Source: a virus. From it: a stretch of 29,159 nt of DNA. Positions 502 through 16,510 of this stretch are shown here, one piece after another (the stretch's first letter is position 1; each line of letters starts with the position of its first letter). The translations under genes were made by a program, and so were the position numbers. The notes below the pieces were generated by a model. The model searched no databases and was not told the origin of the DNA. It saw only the letters and a list, made by a program, of their open reading frames with translations. The stretch lies in IMG/VR virus record IMGVR_UViG_3300032202_000036, positions 1-29,159 of that record, one strand, 5' to 3'.

Positions 502-940
502 TGGGCAGGGGTTGTTGGTCACTTACGTCGGCAGTTAAACGCGCCGTGGGCATAAAGCCAACAACCCCATGCCCACCAGAGCATAGGCACGGTAGGGTTG
601 AGTCACCCATGACGACCGTGGACCAGGGCCAATGCCTGCGTTGAGAGAGCGGCATGTTTAGATGTACGTAGCCTCTCAATCCATTGAGCCGATAAGCAAG
701 TGGGGGCAGCCGGGAGAGACCGGCACCAGTTATGGCAAGTCGTGGAGGTGCGTTGTGTTTGTACAGGTAGGGACGTAACCGAGGTGTTTTGTTGAGGTTG
801 TGTTGGATGGTGCGGGCCGATGAGCAAAGTTACATGTACTTTTGCAAGGCGGACGGATATAAAACACTGTGACAAAATGTCGAAATCGGTATGTTGCTAG
901 ATCGGGTTGCTAGTGCCCGGCCACCTCCACTGACTTGCCG
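502..940 (+). ncRNA. Candidate large structured RNA of about 440 nt
   Basis: No convincing coding frame exists here. By hand count 541-960 is about 54% GC, against roughly 38-43% in sampled flanking lines. Helices appear in succession. P1: 502-518 with 558-575, 17 bp, one bulge (A569), inner hairpin 529-532/543-546. P2: 577-587 with 629-638, then 588-593/615-620 and 595-598/605-608. P3: 641-647/673-679, 7 bp. P4: 709-713/720-724. P5: a long-range helix, 734-750 with 922-939, 17 bp, one bulge (U931), closing about 170 nt that hold 784-790/861-867, 824-830/838-845, 871-874/878-881 and 903-906/916-919. Size, complexity and a phage early-region setting recall the GOLLD and ROOL RNA classes, but I cannot match it to either. 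It lacks recognisable group I intron core, tRNA, tmRNA or RNase P signatures. The strand is taken from its neighbours. Ends are approximate; no U-tract follows, so it may be processed from the operon transcript. Confidence 0.75.
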
Positions 941-2799: not shown

Positions 2800-3018
2800 A
2801 TGGGTGAATTAGTTATTTCAGTAACTATTAAGCCTTGTCCATTCTGCGGTGGCGAGGATATTGAAAGACAAATTGTTGATATGAGAGACAGAGAGGGAGT
2901 ACCAATTTGTATGTCATGTCCGTCATGTGGTGCAAGCGGTCCGTGGAGTTATGCAGATCATGAAGACCACATAGAAACAGCAATTGACGATTGGAATACC
3001 AGGATTGATGCAGACTGA
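2800..3018 (+). CDS. Lar family restriction-alleviation-like protein
   Basis: A 72-residue protein with the full Lar layout: K-P-C13-P-F-C16-G-G, then C40-P-S-C43-G-A-S-G-P-W, then an acidic helix ending in A-x3-W-N-x-R. In Rac prophage, Lar modulates type I restriction-modification; most phage homologues are untested. The start at 2800 follows the previous stop (2796-2798) by one base and has GGGGGTGGG upstream. It is the second Lar-like gene in the block and the better match. Confidence 0.82.
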   Translation: MGELVISVTIKPCPFCGGEDIERQIVDMRDREGVPICMSCPSCGASGPWSYADHEDHIETAIDDWNTRIDAD

Positions 3019-4599: not shown

Positions 4600-5078
4600 C
4601 TCCCATTCGTCAGCTATTAGAGTCCTGGGCCTGGTGGCGGCACACCAAATACTGGATACCATTGGGTTACGGGAAAACCATATTCGCCAGACTCATCGAC
4701 GGGATGCCGGGGACAAACTGTCCCTTATGCCGGACCAGCGGCAAATACCAAGGAAATACCTGCCCTCAATGCTCTGGATTAGGCCGAATCAAGCTTGATC
4801 CGAGCAGTACACGGACCAAGATCAATCCGGCCACCATCCGCAGCACCCACCAATCCGAGGAAAACCTGCTTTTCTACCAGATAGACCGGATAATCGCCCA
4901 ACAGCTCCCACGACAGCAGAAACGGGTCATTATGAGCGAATACGTATGGCATATCAGGGAACCCGACCAAAAACGCCGTGCGCAGCGTCTGAGGCTGACT
5001 CATGGGAATTTTAGAACTCTCTTATCTTTGGCTCATGAAAATATTGAACAGCGGTTGAGGGCCAATAGCCAAAACTAA
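4596..5078 (+). CDS. Q-like late-gene antitermination protein
   Basis: A 160-residue protein with a DnaJ-like zinc knuckle, C42-P-L-C45-x10-C56-P-Q-C59-x-G-x-G, followed by a basic linker and a helical C-terminus (about residues 90-155) that looks like a helix-turn-helix with a conserved tyrosine (SEYVWHI, then RAQRLRLTHGNFRTLLSLA). This is the architecture of phage Q antitermination proteins of the non-lambda zinc-finger type. Q proteins bind the late promoter region and modify paused RNA polymerase so that it reads through terminators. The position, last early gene directly before a promoter-terminator pair and the head genes, is exactly as expected. The start is TTG, overlapping the previous stop as TTGA. 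Confidence 0.8.
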   Translation: MTPIRQLLESWAWWRHTKYWIPLGYGKTIFARLIDGMPGTNCPLCRTSGKYQGNTCPQCSGLGRIKLDPSSTRTKINPATIRSTHQSEENLLFYQIDRIIAQQLPRQQKRVIMSEYVWHIREPDQKRRAQRLRLTHGNFRTLLSLAHENIEQRLRANSQN

Positions 5079-5176
5079 TCAGTTCACTCAGAACAATTAA
5101 TAAATTCAATGACCGTTTGTCGGCCAGCTAAAGATTCTTCTTGACTATCTATCGCTAACCGGTCGTCTTAAATTAT

Positions 5177-5205
5177 TTGATTTCTTTAACATTTTGTGGT
5201 ATAGA
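5177..5205 (+). promoter_or_regulatory. Candidate late promoter (PR'-like), sigma70 type
   Basis: The -35 element TTGATT (5177-5182) is separated by exactly 17 bp from TATAGA (5200-5205), which is preceded by TG at 5197-5198, giving an extended -10. The start would be near 5212. It lies in the only sizeable gap between the Q-like gene and the structural genes. A short hairpin is possible just after the start (5211-5215 with 5223-5227). A second -35-like TTGACT at 5141 has no matching -10. Confidence 0.6.
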
Positions 5206-5234
5206 ACAATAGACTCACGGGAAGTCTCCCAAAA

Positions 5235-5417
5235 ATGGCAGAGAAATCAAAGACTAAACGCATATTGAGACAAGTCGGCCATGAGCTAAAAGTCAACGAG
5301 CCCGCTGTGGTCAAAAAGACCCGAAGAAAAAAGGGGCAAATGGCTGCTGAAAAAGTAAGAAAAGCCGTTCTATTAGACAAGGCCCGCCGTCGGGGCGCTA
5401 GGATTAAAAAGAAGTAG
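5235..5417 (+). CDS. Small highly basic protein, 60 aa
   Basis: A 60-residue protein in which 23 residues are Lys or Arg, probably nucleic-acid binding. The first half (KTKRILRQVGHELKVNEP) and a C-terminal helix ending ARRRGARIKKK weakly recall small phage proteins of the DUF6496 type, but I cannot confirm this. It sits between the late promoter and the first terminator, so it would be transcribed even without antitermination. That would suit an early or constitutive role. Confidence 0.55.
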   Translation: MAEKSKTKRILRQVGHELKVNEPAVVKKTRRKKGQMAAEKVRKAVLLDKARRRGARIKKK

Positions 5418-5434
5418 TCATGGCACATTCTTTT

Positions 5435-5458
5435 ACAGGGCATACGCCCTGTTTTTTT
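5435..5458 (+). terminator. Intrinsic terminator (tR'-like)
   Basis: A perfect 7-bp stem (ACAGGGC 5435-5441 with GCCCTGT 5446-5452) with an ATAC loop is followed by a run of seven T (5452-5458). This is a textbook rho-independent terminator, located 18 nt after the small basic gene and before all packaging and head genes. Those genes therefore need read-through, which fits control by the Q-like protein. Confidence 0.85.
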
Positions 5459-5512
5459 GGACCAAACAATAGCCAAAAGCTATCAATCACATACAAATCA
5501 TAGGACATTGAT

Positions 5513-5695
5513 ATGGCAGGTAGTAGAAAGGTAGATACTCTAGCGCGATCAGGCAGTTTTGCAGATAGACTACGTCGCCGGCGTATGGCCATGGATGCAG
5601 GAGACCCAACAGGCGGTGCTGCCTTTCGTCCTAAAGTGGGCAAGAAGAAGAAAGCTAAAGCCAAAGTGAAAAAGAAAGTTATTAGAGCACGCTAA
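5513..5695 (+). CDS. Small basic protein upstream of terminase, 60 aa
   Basis: A 60-residue protein with 21 Lys/Arg, including an RLRRRR patch near residue 19 and a lysine-rich tail (GKKKKAKAKVKKK). It is probably disordered and nucleic-acid binding. It is the first gene after the terminator. I do not recognise a family; a DNA-packaging accessory or a minor virion protein are both possible. Confidence 0.55.
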   Translation: MAGSRKVDTLARSGSFADRLRRRRMAMDAGDPTGGAAFRPKVGKKKKAKAKVKKKVIRAR

Positions 5696-5717
5696 TGTAG
5701 TTCGATAAATATAGATT

Positions 5718-6011
5718 ATGGCAAGAGATGGCACCAAAACTGGCGGGCGGAAGAAAGGAACAGCCAACAAGAAAACGCAAGACATCGCCAATAAAGCAGC
5801 AGCAGAAGGGATAACGCCGCTTGAGTATATGATTCAGATTTATCGTGATGAGAAGGCGGAACCCGCTAGGCGCGATGACATGGCTAAGGCAGCCGCGCCA
5901 TACATGCACCCACGGCTACAGTCCACAAAGATAGAAGGCCCCGAGGAAGACGGCAGCTTCAAGCATCAAGTAGAGGTCACTTTTGTCGAAGACAAAGGCG
6001 AGTTTTCCTGA
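5718..6011 (+). CDS. terS: Terminase small subunit (putative)
   Basis: A 97-residue protein opening with a basic, glycine-rich DNA-binding-like arm (GGRKKGTANKKTQDIA), then a helical core with TPLEYMIQIYRDE and RRDDMAKAAAPYMHPRLQS. This matches small-terminase-like proteins that precede large terminases in many phages; they recognise the packaging site and stimulate the motor. It lies directly upstream of, and overlaps by 29 nt, the large terminase. It is short for a full TerS (usually 140-180 residues), so a minimal or atypical version is likely. Confidence 0.72.
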   Translation: MARDGTKTGGRKKGTANKKTQDIANKAAAEGITPLEYMIQIYRDEKAEPARRDDMAKAAAPYMHPRLQSTKIEGPEEDGSFKHQVEVTFVEDKGEFS

Positions 6012-7254
6012 AAAACTCCGCTTCCTCTTTGAACCAGCACCATACAAAGTCGCATGGGGCGGGCGCGGATCTGCTAAAAGCTGGTCATTTGCCCGTGCTC
6101 TGTTAATCAAGGGTGCCAGTGCCCCGCTCAGATGGCTATGTGCGAGGGAAATACAGCAATCCATCAAGCAATCCGTTCATCAGCTCTTATGCGATCAAAT
6201 CAAGTTATTAGGGCTTGAGCGCTTCTATGATCCATTACATACCGAGATTCGGGGCAAGAACGGGACATTGTTTAGCTTTACCGGCCTATCCACTCACACC
6301 GTAGACTCGATTAAATCCTTCGAGGGTTACGATGGGGTATGGGTAGAGGAAGGCCAGACCGTCAAAAAGCGGTCATGGGATATCTTGGACCCGACGATAC
6401 GAAAGCCAGATAGCGAGATTTGGGTTACTTTTAACCCCGATCTGGACACGGACGAAACCTATGTCCGTTACATCATCAACACGCCACCCGGCACAAGAAT
6501 CGCTAAAGTCAACTACAGCGATAATCCCTGGTTTCCTGAAGTCCTGGAGAAAAAGCGCCAACATGCAAAGCGCACCATGCCCAGAGAGGACTATAACAAC
6601 ATCTGGGAAGGCATGTGTCGGACTTCAGTCCCTGGCGCGATCTATGCCAATGAAATCGCCAAGGCGCACGAGGAAAAGCGCATCTGTGATGTGCCGTATG
6701 ATCCCATGCTCAAAGTGCACTTGGTCTTTGACATGGGCTGGAATGATTCGATGTTTATCATCCTCGTTCAACGGCATATCTCCAAGCTCATGGTGATTGA
6801 AGCCATTGAGGACGATCATCAAACACTTGATTACTACTCGGCCCTGCTGAAAGAAAAGCGGCTGAATTGGGGTAAGATGTTCCTCCCTTTTGATGCCAGA
6901 CATAAAGACTATAAGCTCGGTAAGTCCGCGCAGGACATCATGACAACGCTAGGATGGGATGTGGAAATCGTGCCGGATATCGGTATGGAGCAAGGCATTC
7001 GAGTGGCGAGGATGGGATTCGGCCAGACGTACTTTGACAAGCACAAGGCGTCAAGACTTGTTGAGTGCCTGAAACGCTACAAGCGCAAGATCAACCAAAG
7101 CAATGACGAGCCCGGCACACCGGATCATGATGAGTTCAGTCATGGTGCTGATTGTTTCCGATATCTACAGATCAGTGCTAATGAAATGACAAATGACACC
7201 AGAAACAGGGAGTTCTTCAAAGACATTCAGTACGACAATAGAGGCATTATATGA
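5983..7254 (+). CDS. terL: Terminase large subunit (PBSX/Terminase_3-like)
   Basis: A 423-residue packaging motor. The ATPase domain has Walker A GGRGSAKS (26-33), Walker B GVWVEEG (118-124) with the catalytic Glu, and a coupling motif WVTFNPD (147-153). The C-terminal RNase H-like nuclease shows the acidic triad D250 (VFDMGW), D304 (LPFDA) and D390 (HGADCFRY). Length is normal for the family. The start is TTG at 5983 with an AGAGG SD at 5972-5976; no ATG lies early enough to keep the Walker A region intact. Its stop overlaps the next ATG. It translocates DNA into the prohead through the portal and cuts concatemers. Confidence 0.95.
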   Translation: MSKTKASFPEKLRFLFEPAPYKVAWGGRGSAKSWSFARALLIKGASAPLRWLCAREIQQSIKQSVHQLLCDQIKLLGLERFYDPLHTEIRGKNGTLFSFTGLSTHTVDSIKSFEGYDGVWVEEGQTVKKRSWDILDPTIRKPDSEIWVTFNPDLDTDETYVRYIINTPPGTRIAKVNYSDNPWFPEVLEKKRQHAKRTMPREDYNNIWEGMCRTSVPGAIYANEIAKAHEEKRICDVPYDPMLKVHLVFDMGWNDSMFIILVQRHISKLMVIEAIEDDHQTLDYYSALLKEKRLNWGKMFLPFDARHKDYKLGKSAQDIMTTLGWDVEIVPDIGMEQGIRVARMGFGQTYFDKHKASRLVECLKRYKRKINQSNDEPGTPDHDEFSHGADCFRYLQISANEMTNDTRNREFFKDIQYDNRGII

Positions 7255-12431: not shown

Positions 12432-12757
12432 AGCGATTATTCGACTATGATCCTTTAACCGGAGTTACACAGTATTTTCATTATGATGAATTAACCGGTA
12501 ACTGGGGCATTGAATCCGTTCAGGATGTTGAACCCTTTTTGGAATTGAACAAAGCCTTACAGAATGATCCGGAATACTCCAGACAAGGGATTAAACAATC
12601 CTGGTGGCATGTGGCCAGAATCCCTATATTAGTTCAGGAAAAATGGCTACGAGAAGAGGGTATTGACATCTATAACAAGGACCATTGGCCGAAAGTCAAA
12701 CAGAAGCTGAATGATCCGGAATGGCGTTATTTACGCACAGCAACAGGCAAGATTTGA
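12428..12757 (+). CDS. Conserved-type neck/head-region protein, 109 aa
   Basis: A 109-residue protein beginning KRLFDYDPLTGVTQYFHYDE, with WWHVARIPILVQEKWLREEG in the middle and a C-terminus LNDPEWRYLRTATGKI. This pattern is familiar from short-tailed phages, where the gene sits between coat and adaptor genes, but I know no tested role. Head completion or neck assembly is the best guess. The sugar-modifying cassette begins inside its 3' end and separates it from the adaptor gene. Confidence 0.68.
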   Translation: MKRLFDYDPLTGVTQYFHYDELTGNWGIESVQDVEPFLELNKALQNDPEYSRQGIKQSWWHVARIPILVQEKWLREEGIDIYNKDHWPKVKQKLNDPEWRYLRTATGKI

Positions 12758-14103
12758 ACGCGATTCAGCGGCTCATTGATGCCGGAGAGTACCAGGAAGC
12801 CTTAAAAGTGCTGAATGAGGCGCTAGACAACAATCCGGATGATTTGACGGCCTTATTTCAGATTGGGGAAGTTCTGCTCAAGACAGACCGATTGGGACTG
12901 GCCACCAATATTTACCGTTATTTGACGACGAAAACCGAGCGCAGTGAGGTCTGGAACAATCTGGGGCGCTGTTATCAGAAGCGGGAAACCTCGAAAGAGG
13001 CTAGGAAATGCTTCGGAAAGGCACTTCAGGTTGCCCCAGAGTCTCCGTATGCCCGAATTAACCTGGCCGTGCTGGATGTCCAAGAGGGACACCCGGAAAC
13101 CGCCCAAAAACTCGCCTCAGAGGCCCTAAGTGTGTTACCGGACTCCCGACAGGCCCGGGATGTGCTGGCTATGGCCAAACTGCATTTACGGGACTGGAGC
13201 GGATTTGATGATTATCTCCATTCCGAAGGTCCGCCTTTTCGCCTATTACGTCAATATTGTATGCCGGGCGAGGCGGAATGGATGGGAGAGCCTGATAAAA
13301 CCGTTGTGATTTATCGGGAACAAGGATTGGGAGATGAGATTTTGTATGCCTCCTGTTTGGATGAAGCGATTCAAGTCTCAAAACAAGTTATTTTAGACGT
13401 GGATAAGCGATTAGTGGGACTGTTTCAGCGCTCTTTCCCAGCTAAGGTCTACGGTACGGGTCATTCTAAGGAAATCAGGTGGGCACGGCATTATCAGATT
13501 GATGCGTCGGCTCCCATTGGAAGGATTGCGGGGTTTTACAGACGGAAAAACAGCGATTTTACCGGCAAGCCTTATCTCAAGGCCTGCCCTCACAGGAAAA
13601 CAGCCTATCGCGCCATGCTGGATGCCTTAGGGCCAGGCCAGAAAATCGGTTTAGCCTGGACCGGTGGGAAACGCAGCGATTCCGTTACGCGTGCCGACAG
13701 CGATTACCGTTCTTTGCCGCCTGAACTGATCAAGCGGCTCATGAAATCGGAGAATCACTATATCAGCTTGGAATATCGACCAGGGCATAAAATAGAAGGT
13801 GTTCATGATTGGCCGTGGATCACGCAAAGCCAGGATTACGACGATACCGCGGCATTAGTCAGTGAGCTGGACTACGTTATTGCCGTACCCACAACAGTCG
13901 TGCATTTGGCCGGTGCATTAGGCACGCCGTGTTATTGTTTGACACCGGAATTTCCTAATTGGCGTTTCGGTTTAAAGGGCGACATGATTTGGCACAAGTC
14001 TGTGAAACTGTTTCGTAATCAGGGAAACTGGGTTAAGACTGTTAAACGATTGAGGCATTACCTTGAAACTCGATATTGTGATACCTGTCGGACCGGGACA
14101 TAA
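12721..14103 (+). CDS. TPR-fused GT9/GT41-like glycosyltransferase
   Basis: A 460-residue protein. Residues 12 to about 155 are tetratricopeptide repeats (AGEYQEALKVLNEALDNNPD; SEVWNNLGRCYQKRETSKEA; then SPYARINLAVLDVQEG). The rest is a GT-B-type glycosyltransferase: YREQGLGDEILYASCL (donor-site loop), IGLAWTGGKRSDSV, and VVHLAGALGTPCYCLTP followed by NWRFG, the heptosyltransferase/OGT-like signature. The usual acidic residue before the VHLAGA helix is replaced (AVPTTVVHL). The start is uncertain: ATG 12721 overlaps the upstream gene by 37 nt, while TTG 12754 would overlap its stop as TTGA. First gene of a four-gene sugar cassette; acceptor unknown. Confidence 0.82.
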   Translation: MALFTHSNRQDLNAIQRLIDAGEYQEALKVLNEALDNNPDDLTALFQIGEVLLKTDRLGLATNIYRYLTTKTERSEVWNNLGRCYQKRETSKEARKCFGKALQVAPESPYARINLAVLDVQEGHPETAQKLASEALSVLPDSRQARDVLAMAKLHLRDWSGFDDYLHSEGPPFRLLRQYCMPGEAEWMGEPDKTVVIYREQGLGDEILYASCLDEAIQVSKQVILDVDKRLVGLFQRSFPAKVYGTGHSKEIRWARHYQIDASAPIGRIAGFYRRKNSDFTGKPYLKACPHRKTAYRAMLDALGPGQKIGLAWTGGKRSDSVTRADSDYRSLPPELIKRLMKSENHYISLEYRPGHKIEGVHDWPWITQSQDYDDTAALVSELDYVIAVPTTVVHLAGALGTPCYCLTPEFPNWRFGLKGDMIWHKSVKLFRNQGNWVKTVKRLRHYLETRYCDTCRTGT

Positions 14104-14725
14104 GCAACTTGTCAATGAGGCGATACATAGTGTTAATATCGCCTGTTTGACAGATAAAGGCCCTTTCGCTGACATCAAGATTAAAGGTGTTGACGACACA
14201 GAAGGCAAGTATGGTCGTTCCAAGGCCAGGAATATGGCCATTGATGCCTCTAAGGCAGATTGGATGTTCTTTTTAGATGCCGATGATCTGATGCATCCTC
14301 AAGCCTTTAAGCACTTAAAAGAAGTCTTTGAACAGGAAAGCATAGGTTATGTCGCGATTTGGGGGAAGATTGTAGAAGAAAAAGACGGCTGTCTTGTAGA
14401 TCGTTATCAACTGCCGGTTGTTAGAAATTTTGAAACACTGCTTAACGTAGATCCCTACTACACATTGCAAATGGGATTTTTTGTCAAGCGTGATCGTATG
14501 CCGGTTTTTGATGAATCTATGGATACCGGAGAGGACTGGAAGGTCTATCTTGAATTATGGCGTAATTTCCCCTGCATTAAGACGGATAAGCCTTTCATGA
14601 TTAATCGTCGTGGACTTCATTCCGAAGGAGAAAGATCAGCCAATGGCGTCCAATGGCGGGAAGTCGTAACGAAACTGATCGAAGCGGAAAGACAGGCTAA
14701 GCGTGTTTCTTTGTCCGTCGCGTAG
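14063..14725 (+). CDS. Family 2-like glycosyltransferase
   Basis: A 220-residue GT-A-fold enzyme: LDIVIPVGPGHKQLVNEAI at the N-terminus, GRSKARNMAIDASKADWMFF leading into the DxD motif D72-A-D74-D, and a later MDTGEDWKVYLELW segment at the acceptor site. It would transfer a sugar from a nucleotide donor with a divalent metal. The start is TTG at 14063 with GAGG 7 nt upstream, inside the previous gene (41-nt overlap). Short length suggests a compact single-domain enzyme. Confidence 0.82.
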   Translation: MKLDIVIPVGPGHKQLVNEAIHSVNIACLTDKGPFADIKIKGVDDTEGKYGRSKARNMAIDASKADWMFFLDADDLMHPQAFKHLKEVFEQESIGYVAIWGKIVEEKDGCLVDRYQLPVVRNFETLLNVDPYYTLQMGFFVKRDRMPVFDESMDTGEDWKVYLELWRNFPCIKTDKPFMINRRGLHSEGERSANGVQWREVVTKLIEAERQAKRVSLSVA

Positions 14726-15374
14726 CCGGCCGCATAATTTGCAACGGCTTATCGATTATTACGAAAAAACACATGCCTATGTAAAGTTCCTGGTTCGTTT
14801 GGATGAAGATGATCCGTATCTTGAAGATTATCTGAAGCTAGTTATTCCAGATTCCTGGATTGTGCATATCGGCCCGCAAGTCAAAATGGGCGGTGCCATG
14901 CGTGAGACTTTCAAGGAATTTCCAAACGAGCCGTTTTACTCCTTTATCGGTGACGACACGATACCAAGAACAGAGTATTGGGATAAGGAACTGATAGAGA
15001 CCGCCGGAGATTGGCTGATTGCTTATCCCAATGATTTGTTGAAAGGCCGTAAACAGGCCACGCACCCCGTCATCGGTGGTGAATTATTACGTGCCGTCGG
15101 TTATTGGACATTACCTTGCTTGACACATTTGTATACCGATACTGTATGGGATTACATCGGTAAAATGCTTGATTTGCTTCGTTATCGTGAAGATGTAATT
15201 TTAGAGCATTGTCACTGGAGCGTAGGAAAGGCACCAAAAGACGAAATATATATCAGGCAATTCAACGGTAGAAATTACCATATTGAGGACTTGTTATGTT
15301 ACGAGCATTGGAAACGGACTCTGGATGTCAATATCTTGCGCAAGACCATTGCCGAGTCTGTGAAGGCTCATTAA
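14703..15374 (+). CDS. GT-A-like glycosyltransferase, second copy type
   Basis: A 223-residue protein with PSRSRPHNLQRLIDYY at the N-terminus, VRLDEDDPYLEDY, and a DxD-like motif FIGDD (81-85) before a TEYWDKEL helix. It also has an H-W-S-V-G segment near residue 172. This fits small phage or metagenomic GT2-like enzymes. The start is GTG at 14703, 23 nt inside the previous gene. Its sequence differs from the upstream GT2, so it is not a recent duplicate. Donor and acceptor are unknown. Confidence 0.72.
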   Translation: MFLCPSRSRPHNLQRLIDYYEKTHAYVKFLVRLDEDDPYLEDYLKLVIPDSWIVHIGPQVKMGGAMRETFKEFPNEPFYSFIGDDTIPRTEYWDKELIETAGDWLIAYPNDLLKGRKQATHPVIGGELLRAVGYWTLPCLTHLYTDTVWDYIGKMLDLLRYREDVILEHCHWSVGKAPKDEIYIRQFNGRNYHIEDLLCYEHWKRTLDVNILRKTIAESVKAH

Positions 15375-16510
15375 AAGAGTTACTCTATTTTGGAAAGCAT
15401 TATCTAAGCGGTCAGTTTCCCAATAAGGAAGATCCGAACCCGCCTAGAGTGCCGATGACATTAATGCATTGTCCTGATTGCGGGCTAGTGCAATTGCGTG
15501 AAACCGTGAATCCACGGGAACTGTATCATTATGGTTATGGATATAGAAGCGGTACCACGCATACTATGAAATCTCATTTGAAGGATATTGTAGATCGTGC
15601 TGGTACTGAGGTCGACCTGTGTTATCGCTCTGATGTCGTGTTAGACATAGGTTGTAATGATGGGACATTGTTGTCATTCTGGCCAGAAAATGTTGTTCGT
15701 GTCGGCTTTGATCCTATTGCCAAACCAAAGGACGGTTATCGTATCGTTCAGGATTTTTTTAATTATGGCTCATATCGACGCGCGGTGAGCAATCAGACCA
15801 AAGTAATCACTGCTATTGCCATGTTCTACGATTTGGCAAGCCCGATATCGGTTGCAAAAGATATGTATGAAATCCTTGATAACAAAGGAATCGTTATTAT
15901 AGAAGTCGCCTATATAGGTGCTTTATTGAAAGGGGCGTGGGATGGTGTATGTCATGAGCATCTTGAATATTACGGTCTGGCACAATTAAAGCGCATCCTT
16001 GAGAGAGTTGGGTTTAAAATATTTCATGCAGAATTAAACGATATTAATGGAGGGTCAATACAGGTCTGGGCTGATAAAGGAGTTCGCCCGATTAAAAGCA
16101 GTGTTTATGGGATTTTGAACAAAGAATGGATGTTCAATTTCAAGGATTTCAAAGATAACGCATTACGAGCGGCGAGCCGTATTAATCATGTTGTGAAAAA
16201 ATTAAAATCAGAAGGTAAAACAATTGATATCTACGGCGCTTCGACAAAAGGAAATACTCTTTTGCAGTTTTGCGGGATCAAAAACGAGATACGATGGGCA
16301 GCAGATCGCAACCCGGAGAAGGTCGGTAAAGTAACTCCCGGTACGCGTATTCCTATCGTATCAGAAATGGAGTCACGCAATAATCCGCCAGATTACTATC
16401 TTGTGTTGCCTTGGGCCTTTAAAGATGAATTCATCAGCCGAGAAAAAGCCCTTTTAAATAAAGGAGTTAGATTCATTTTTCCGCTGCCCAATTTGGAGAT
16501 TGTCGGATAA
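15296..16510 (+). CDS. Sugar C-methyltransferase, SAM-dependent
   Basis: A 404-residue protein with the three-part layout of NDP-deoxysugar C-methyltransferases such as TylC3 and TcaB9. Part one is an N-terminal zinc module (C19-R-V-C22 and C59-P-D-C62). Part two is a Rossmann SAM domain with VLDIGCNDGTLL (115-126), and the family hallmark HEHLEYYG that carries the catalytic His/Glu and Tyr pair. Part three is a C-terminal Rossmann-like domain (IDIYGASTKGNTLLQF). The enzyme adds a methyl branch to a keto-sugar nucleotide. ATG 15296 has a GAGG SD 8 nt upstream, and the long 79-nt overlap is needed to keep the zinc ligands. No NDP-sugar synthesis genes are nearby, so host sugar nucleotides are the likely substrate. 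Confidence 0.87.
   Translation: MLRALETDSGCQYLAQDHCRVCEGSLKELLYFGKHYLSGQFPNKEDPNPPRVPMTLMHCPDCGLVQLRETVNPRELYHYGYGYRSGTTHTMKSHLKDIVDRAGTEVDLCYRSDVVLDIGCNDGTLLSFWPENVVRVGFDPIAKPKDGYRIVQDFFNYGSYRRAVSNQTKVITAIAMFYDLASPISVAKDMYEILDNKGIVIIEVAYIGALLKGAWDGVCHEHLEYYGLAQLKRILERVGFKIFHAELNDINGGSIQVWADKGVRPIKSSVYGILNKEWMFNFKDFKDNALRAASRINHVVKKLKSEGKTIDIYGASTKGNTLLQFCGIKNEIRWAADRNPEKVGKVTPGTRIPIVSEMESRNNPPDYYLVLPWAFKDEFISREKALLNKGVRFIFPLPNLEIVG

Follow-up and report, generated by a model that had tools for sequence, protein, structure and literature searches.

What is the 439-nt stretch at positions 502-940 of this virus record, and does it hold an RNA or a gene? The window analysed here is the whole 29,159-nt record (IMG/VR IMGVR_UViG_3300032202_000036), which carries small early genes, a RuvC-like resolvase, an HNH protein, a terminase, a portal and a capsid. 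The gap is bounded by the stop codon of a small phage gene (499-501) and by the ATG of the next gene at 960. Its GC content is 0.547, compared with 0.395 upstream and 0.405 downstream, and its codon scores are below zero in all six frames, compared with scores above zero for each of the eight neighbouring genes that were scored. No credible family match was obtained for the minus-strand ORFs (PHROG E 0.14 at best), and the one of 132 aa gave no tblastn match in phages. On the negative codon scores and the lack of credible ORF relatives, a hidden or decayed gene was rejected. The initial annotation had described a coding gap of raised GC, which holds (55% versus 40%), and the decayed protein gene that it named as a refuting outcome is not borne out.

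The plus strand of 502-940 folds at -173.5 kcal/mol, compared with -152.5 +/- 5.9 for its shuffles (z -3.56), and none of 100 shuffles folded as well, so that the comparison with shuffled controls proposed in the initial annotation came out in its favour. The minus strand folds less well against its own shuffles (z -2.5), and the coding stretch of equal length directly upstream has a z of -1.18. The region is a real structured non-coding stretch, and its place and direction suggest that it is probably part of a phage early transcript. The earlier view that no promoter, terminator or gene accounts for it is supported, and it is best treated as a structured non-coding RNA candidate. Its domains are collected in Table 1. 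P1 and P6 correspond to the pair of ~17-bp, singly bulged helices that had been noticed in the sequence; the count of at least five helices also stands, although the energy of P2 is no better than chance. The fold signal is carried by P1, P3 and P6, with no contribution from P2, and P4 together with the adjoining hairpin (680-732) has a z of -2.0.

Table 1. Features of the 502-940 region, in positions of the window
Feature	Positions	Strand	Evidence
Structured non-coding RNA region	502-940	+	Fold z, codon scores, raised GC, absent from nearest relative (L003)
P1: helix of ~17 bp with one bulge (A569); CCA directly after (576-578)	502-578	+	z -4.8 for 502-575
P2: weak hairpin region	578-640	+	z -0.6, not significant
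P3: 7-bp helix UUGAGAG/CUCUCAA closing a small hairpin, then U-CCA (680-683)	641-683	+	z -2.9 for 640-680
P4: small hairpin immediately 5' of the candidate leader hairpin	681-703	+	In MFE and centroid
Candidate leader hairpin: GGGCA, stem 709-713/720-724, loop GAGAGA 714-719, A725	704-725	+	cmsearch
G-poor spacer between hairpin and P6	726-733	+	Sequence; hairpin family G-poor at the same place
P6: branched 207-nt domain closed by a 17-bp helix with one bulge; G940, then CCA 941-943	734-940	+	z -2.9 (733-940)
T-arm-like hairpin next to the 3' strand of P6, with 5 bp and the 7-nt loop UGCUAGU	903-919	+	MFE and centroid

When the Rfam models, including those of GOLLD, ROOL, OLE, HEARO and group I and II introns, were run on the window, none reached its gathering threshold, and at E <= 10 the sole match on 400-1000 was an unrelated frameshift element below its cut-off. 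The suggested kinship with GOLLD or ROOL is therefore unsupported, and the RNA lies outside the catalogued families. It resembles GOLLD and ROOL in being large, structured, non-coding and found in phages, in some cases near tRNAs; it differs in being shorter, in carrying a UGACA-type hairpin and in having no Rfam match. Searches of viral contigs, phages and plasmids gave no homologue of the RNA as a whole. With its exact helix strands as queries, one search returned four matches that had no further similarity and another returned none. The nearest relative with this region of the genome (L003), with 83% identity in the terminase, shares some of the small genes nearby, and after its homologue of gene 2 it has different protein genes and no RNA. 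Since this syntenic relative lacks it, the RNA is accessory. Since these searches gave no homologue of the full RNA, covariation could be tested on its hairpin module alone, where, as described below, the check called for in the initial annotation gave a strong result. On its own, a large RNA lacking relatives would be no more than a candidate; what is new here is the family to which the hairpin belongs and where its members are placed.

The first lead to this family was a weak BLAST match (E 0.1) in three near-identical cyanophage records, covering 36 nt of a gap that carries no annotation. With the cyanophage gap as query, the same 22 nt turned up in Microcystis and Cronobacter phages, in non-coding stretches. 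A 34-nt consensus query matched phages of Enterobacteriaceae, Pseudomonas, Stenotrophomonas, Acinetobacter, Brevundimonas, Rhodobacter and Phaeobacter as well as plasmids, including one of Tsukamurella, mostly where nothing is annotated. The consensus is UGACA-stem-GARAGA-stem'-A, with a 5-bp stem that ends in G-C and a G-poor spacer after it. The boxB element of lambda nut also has a 5-bp stem and a purine-rich G...A loop and is found in phage leaders, where each boxB is specific to its phage and recognised by the N protein of that phage; the type of stem and loop is similar, but the loop of the hairpin is constant across unrelated phages. A strict pattern, TGACAGNCSGGARAGACSNGCA, occurs in at least 120 viral contigs of IMG/VR. 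Nearly half of the copies (59 of 128) fall in gaps between ORFs, compared with 14% of random positions, and in annotated phages most are in unannotated gaps; if the family is what it appears to be, it would have been overlooked because of this location. Among 398 proteobacterial genomes the strict pattern has three copies and its reversed control none. One of the three is 4 nt upstream of a tRNA-Pro, which is followed by a Mor-like gene, and another adjoins a RecE-like gene; by a reading of the translated ORFs, rather than a family search, these two look like prophage copies. The 5' pentamer also occurs as TGGCA, TGGCG, TGACC and AGACA, and one-change variants make up 11 of 228 paired hairpins, a figure limited by the search patterns, which imposed UGACA. 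Four hairpin strings have no occurrence in 5.39 million open-access papers, and topical searches of the open literature found no description of the hairpin; subscription journals and bioRxiv were mostly outside this scope, and an earlier description is possible.

To obtain a fair test of pairing, we searched viral contigs with the pattern TGACANNNNGGAAAGACNNNNA, in which the stem is left free. All four free stem positions were paired in 76 of 110 distinct instances, where about 2.2 would be expected, and these represent 30 stem types; in a more stringent set, 133 of 134 instances had complementary bases at the two S positions. The alignment A1 was picked from paired instances, and its pair counts are therefore no test, a role that falls to the TGACANNNNGGAAAGACNNNNA search. 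Strand is constrained too, in that all 78 pairs of tRNA and hairpin within 1 kb of each other are on the same strand and none on opposite strands. T-arms cluster within 200 nt on either side of the hairpins, with almost none in antisense, and among the sequence modules common to the hairpin surroundings only tRNA T-arms and further copies of the motif stand out. Because the stem covaries and the strand is always that of the neighbouring tRNAs, the hairpin works at the RNA level. It is a covarying, phage-specific, strand-bound RNA element located at the 5' edge of tRNAs and of other units.

Across phages, the hairpin is located in the 5' leaders of tRNAs and tRNA-like RNAs and before genes. A tRNA-like gene begins 3-7 nt 3' of it in 30 of 221 cases, with a peak at 4 nt, compared with 34 cases for offsets 10-119 taken together; copies before a tRNA are thus a minority of the family. 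The other copies are found in intercistronic gaps or in large non-coding gaps of 300-1700 nt; roughly a third have a plausible start codon 15-45 nt downstream, and those with neither a tRNA nor a start codon nearby have no clear partner. An array of hairpins is present on the contig L102, where one hairpin stands directly before each of four tRNA-like genes, several of them unusual in shape, and a fifth before an ORF. These five hairpins fall within 1.4 kb (4710-6160), and ARAGORN called only one of the four aberrant-looking tRNA-like genes. Elsewhere (L116, L105, L142, L092 and L168), tRNA-like genes just 3' of a hairpin have a normal-looking acceptor stem and T-arm and an odd middle. Two candidate features of the family were rejected: a role of the motif's UGA as a stop codon, as most ORFs ending at it are short, and a stable upstream helix as a general trait, where stems abut UGACA somewhat more often than in control windows (28 versus about 9-18 of ~95) and show no energy effect. 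A long helix directly 3' of the hairpin is likewise not supported as a general feature of the family.

How well does the copy in the window fit? A covariance model built from 44 hairpin instances, with this copy excluded, ranks 707-731 first in the 29-kb record at 22.8 bits (the next best site has 9.8), with an E of 0.002 that is not fully independent, as the family was found through the record's own BLAST match. The model has no match in 29 control loci (391 kb) or in ten records with related terminases. At 704-725 the sequence reads GGGCA-GCCGG-GAGAGA-CCGGC-A, and 709-725 has the 5-bp stem, the GARAGA hexaloop and the A after the stem. In place of the UGACA pentamer it has GGGCA, with two of five bases changed; the pentamer is possibly not a strict requirement, and the L102 variants TGGCA, TGGCG and AGACA approach this form.

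P6 starts 8 nt after A725; a tRNA follows the hairpin in only a minority of the family. Neither ARAGORN nor the RF00005 model recognised a tRNA or tmRNA at 502-940. P6 is like a tRNA in its closing helix, its abutting arm of 5 bp and 7 nt, its terminal N-CCA and its association with a hairpin found in tRNA leaders; it differs in that the helix has 17 bp rather than the 7 bp of an acceptor-like stem, the domain is 207 nt long and there is no T-loop consensus, the UGCUAGU loop being off TTCRANY. An (N)CCA directly follows P1, P3 and P6. In the MFE structure of 502-940 it follows two of five exterior stems, and only one of 300 shuffles has as many, a pattern that was spotted post hoc. P1 and P3 may likewise be tRNA-like modules with a CCA end. 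Real tRNAs aside, N-CCA behind a closing helix is not general at the other hairpins of the family.

That one hairpin is common to many unrelated phages and is often just before tRNA genes suggests an undescribed signal for phage RNA handling. Our preferred reading, to which we give a probability of roughly 0.45, is that the hairpin acts as an RNA leader or as a punctuation element and that the 502-940 RNA is a structured non-coding RNA with P6 as its tRNA-like cargo. Within a long phage transcript, the hairpin would mark the start of the RNA unit that comes next, and a putative, widely conserved host factor would read it and free, protect or otherwise handle that unit. In the window, the unit would be the tRNA-like 207-nt P6 domain, which begins 8 nt past the hairpin and ends in N-CCA.

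The main rival takes the hairpin for an antiterminator or anti-pausing RNA like HK022 put or nut, whose nascent transcript would bind RNA polymerase and allow passage through untranslated, structured or Rho-sensitive stretches such as tRNA arrays or the 502-940 RNA. A phage-specific, strand-specific hairpin that works at the RNA level in hosts of several phyla is what one would look for in an element targeting a universal enzyme, and there is a precedent in HK022 put, a cis-acting antiterminator RNA of ~70 nt with two stems that needs no protein partner (PMC9378689). In an E. coli prophage locus (L089), a promoter-like site shortly precedes one copy of the hairpin, and a strong terminator follows it. 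Within 150 nt of the hairpins, terminator-like sites are also more frequent downstream (11 of 97) than upstream (5 of 94), but this enrichment is small, and processive antitermination would need neither the 3-7 nt peak before tRNAs nor the copies between tRNAs. Moreover, no such hairpin is present in the HK022 early region (24-40.75 kb). As this region contains put, identity of the two elements is rejected; both are cis-acting phage RNA structures in early transcripts, but put, with its ~70 nt and two stems, has a different sequence. We consider antitermination unlikely, if still a serious competitor to punctuation.

Two further explanations give the hairpin a lesser or a different part. If the whole 439-nt region were one new class of large RNA, a scaffold, cage or ribozyme in which the hairpin is incidental, its two long closed domains and good overall fold would be accounted for, but conservation of a single architecture cannot be shown for an RNA with no whole-length homologue in viral contigs, phages or plasmids, and we regard this as improbable. 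More doubtful again is a role as decoy or sponge that draws in a host RNA-binding protein or a defence nuclease, with large RNAs such as this one carrying the hairpin as cargo: some loci (L089 and L102) do have multiple copies, and the hairpin travels with accessory non-coding regions and is absent from the nearest relative, yet most loci have a single copy and the tight spacing to tRNAs would be unexpected.

Returning to the punctuation reading, its widest form is that in tailed phages of several bacterial phyla one undescribed UGACA-stem-GARAGA leader hairpin acts through a conserved host factor to punctuate transcripts before tRNAs, tRNA-like RNAs of aberrant form and genes, the 502-940 RNA being a giant CCA-ended tRNA-like RNA on such a leader. 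We advance this broader proposal tentatively, with less confidence than the reading of the hairpin and its cargo given above. If true, one short RNA signal would be common to phages of proteobacterial, actinobacterial and cyanobacterial hosts; it would help to explain how tRNAs and large non-coding RNAs are processed or protected in phages and provide a way to search out such RNAs, and host defence might perhaps target this RNA. The hairpin occurs in cultured phages such as Enterobacteria phage mEp390 and Cronobacter phage ESP2949-1, and its small size would permit direct mutation in laboratory phages such as mEp390.

Several other observations were made along the way. Long imperfect helices of the form CACAAC..AAGCGCATTCC/GGAGTGCGCTT..GTTGTG are found in non-coding gaps of enterobacterial phages (L084, L085, L090 and L219), and in three of these four loci such a helix comes directly after the hairpin. 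Hairpin-bearing non-coding regions of lambdoid prophages (L162, 300-401 on the minus strand, and similarly L089, L219 and L223) contain a stretch like the 3' end of the host sRNA RprA together with a terminator; the stretch in L162 scores 37.7 bits against an Rfam cut-off of 70. In the window itself, 2800-3018 encodes a small protein that matches Pfam PF14354, the family of Lar restriction alleviation proteins (E 8.6e-11), and the interval between the capsid and tail genes (12721-16510) appears by eye to encode a TPR protein, glycosyltransferases and a methyltransferase, possibly for modification of the virion or the host surface.
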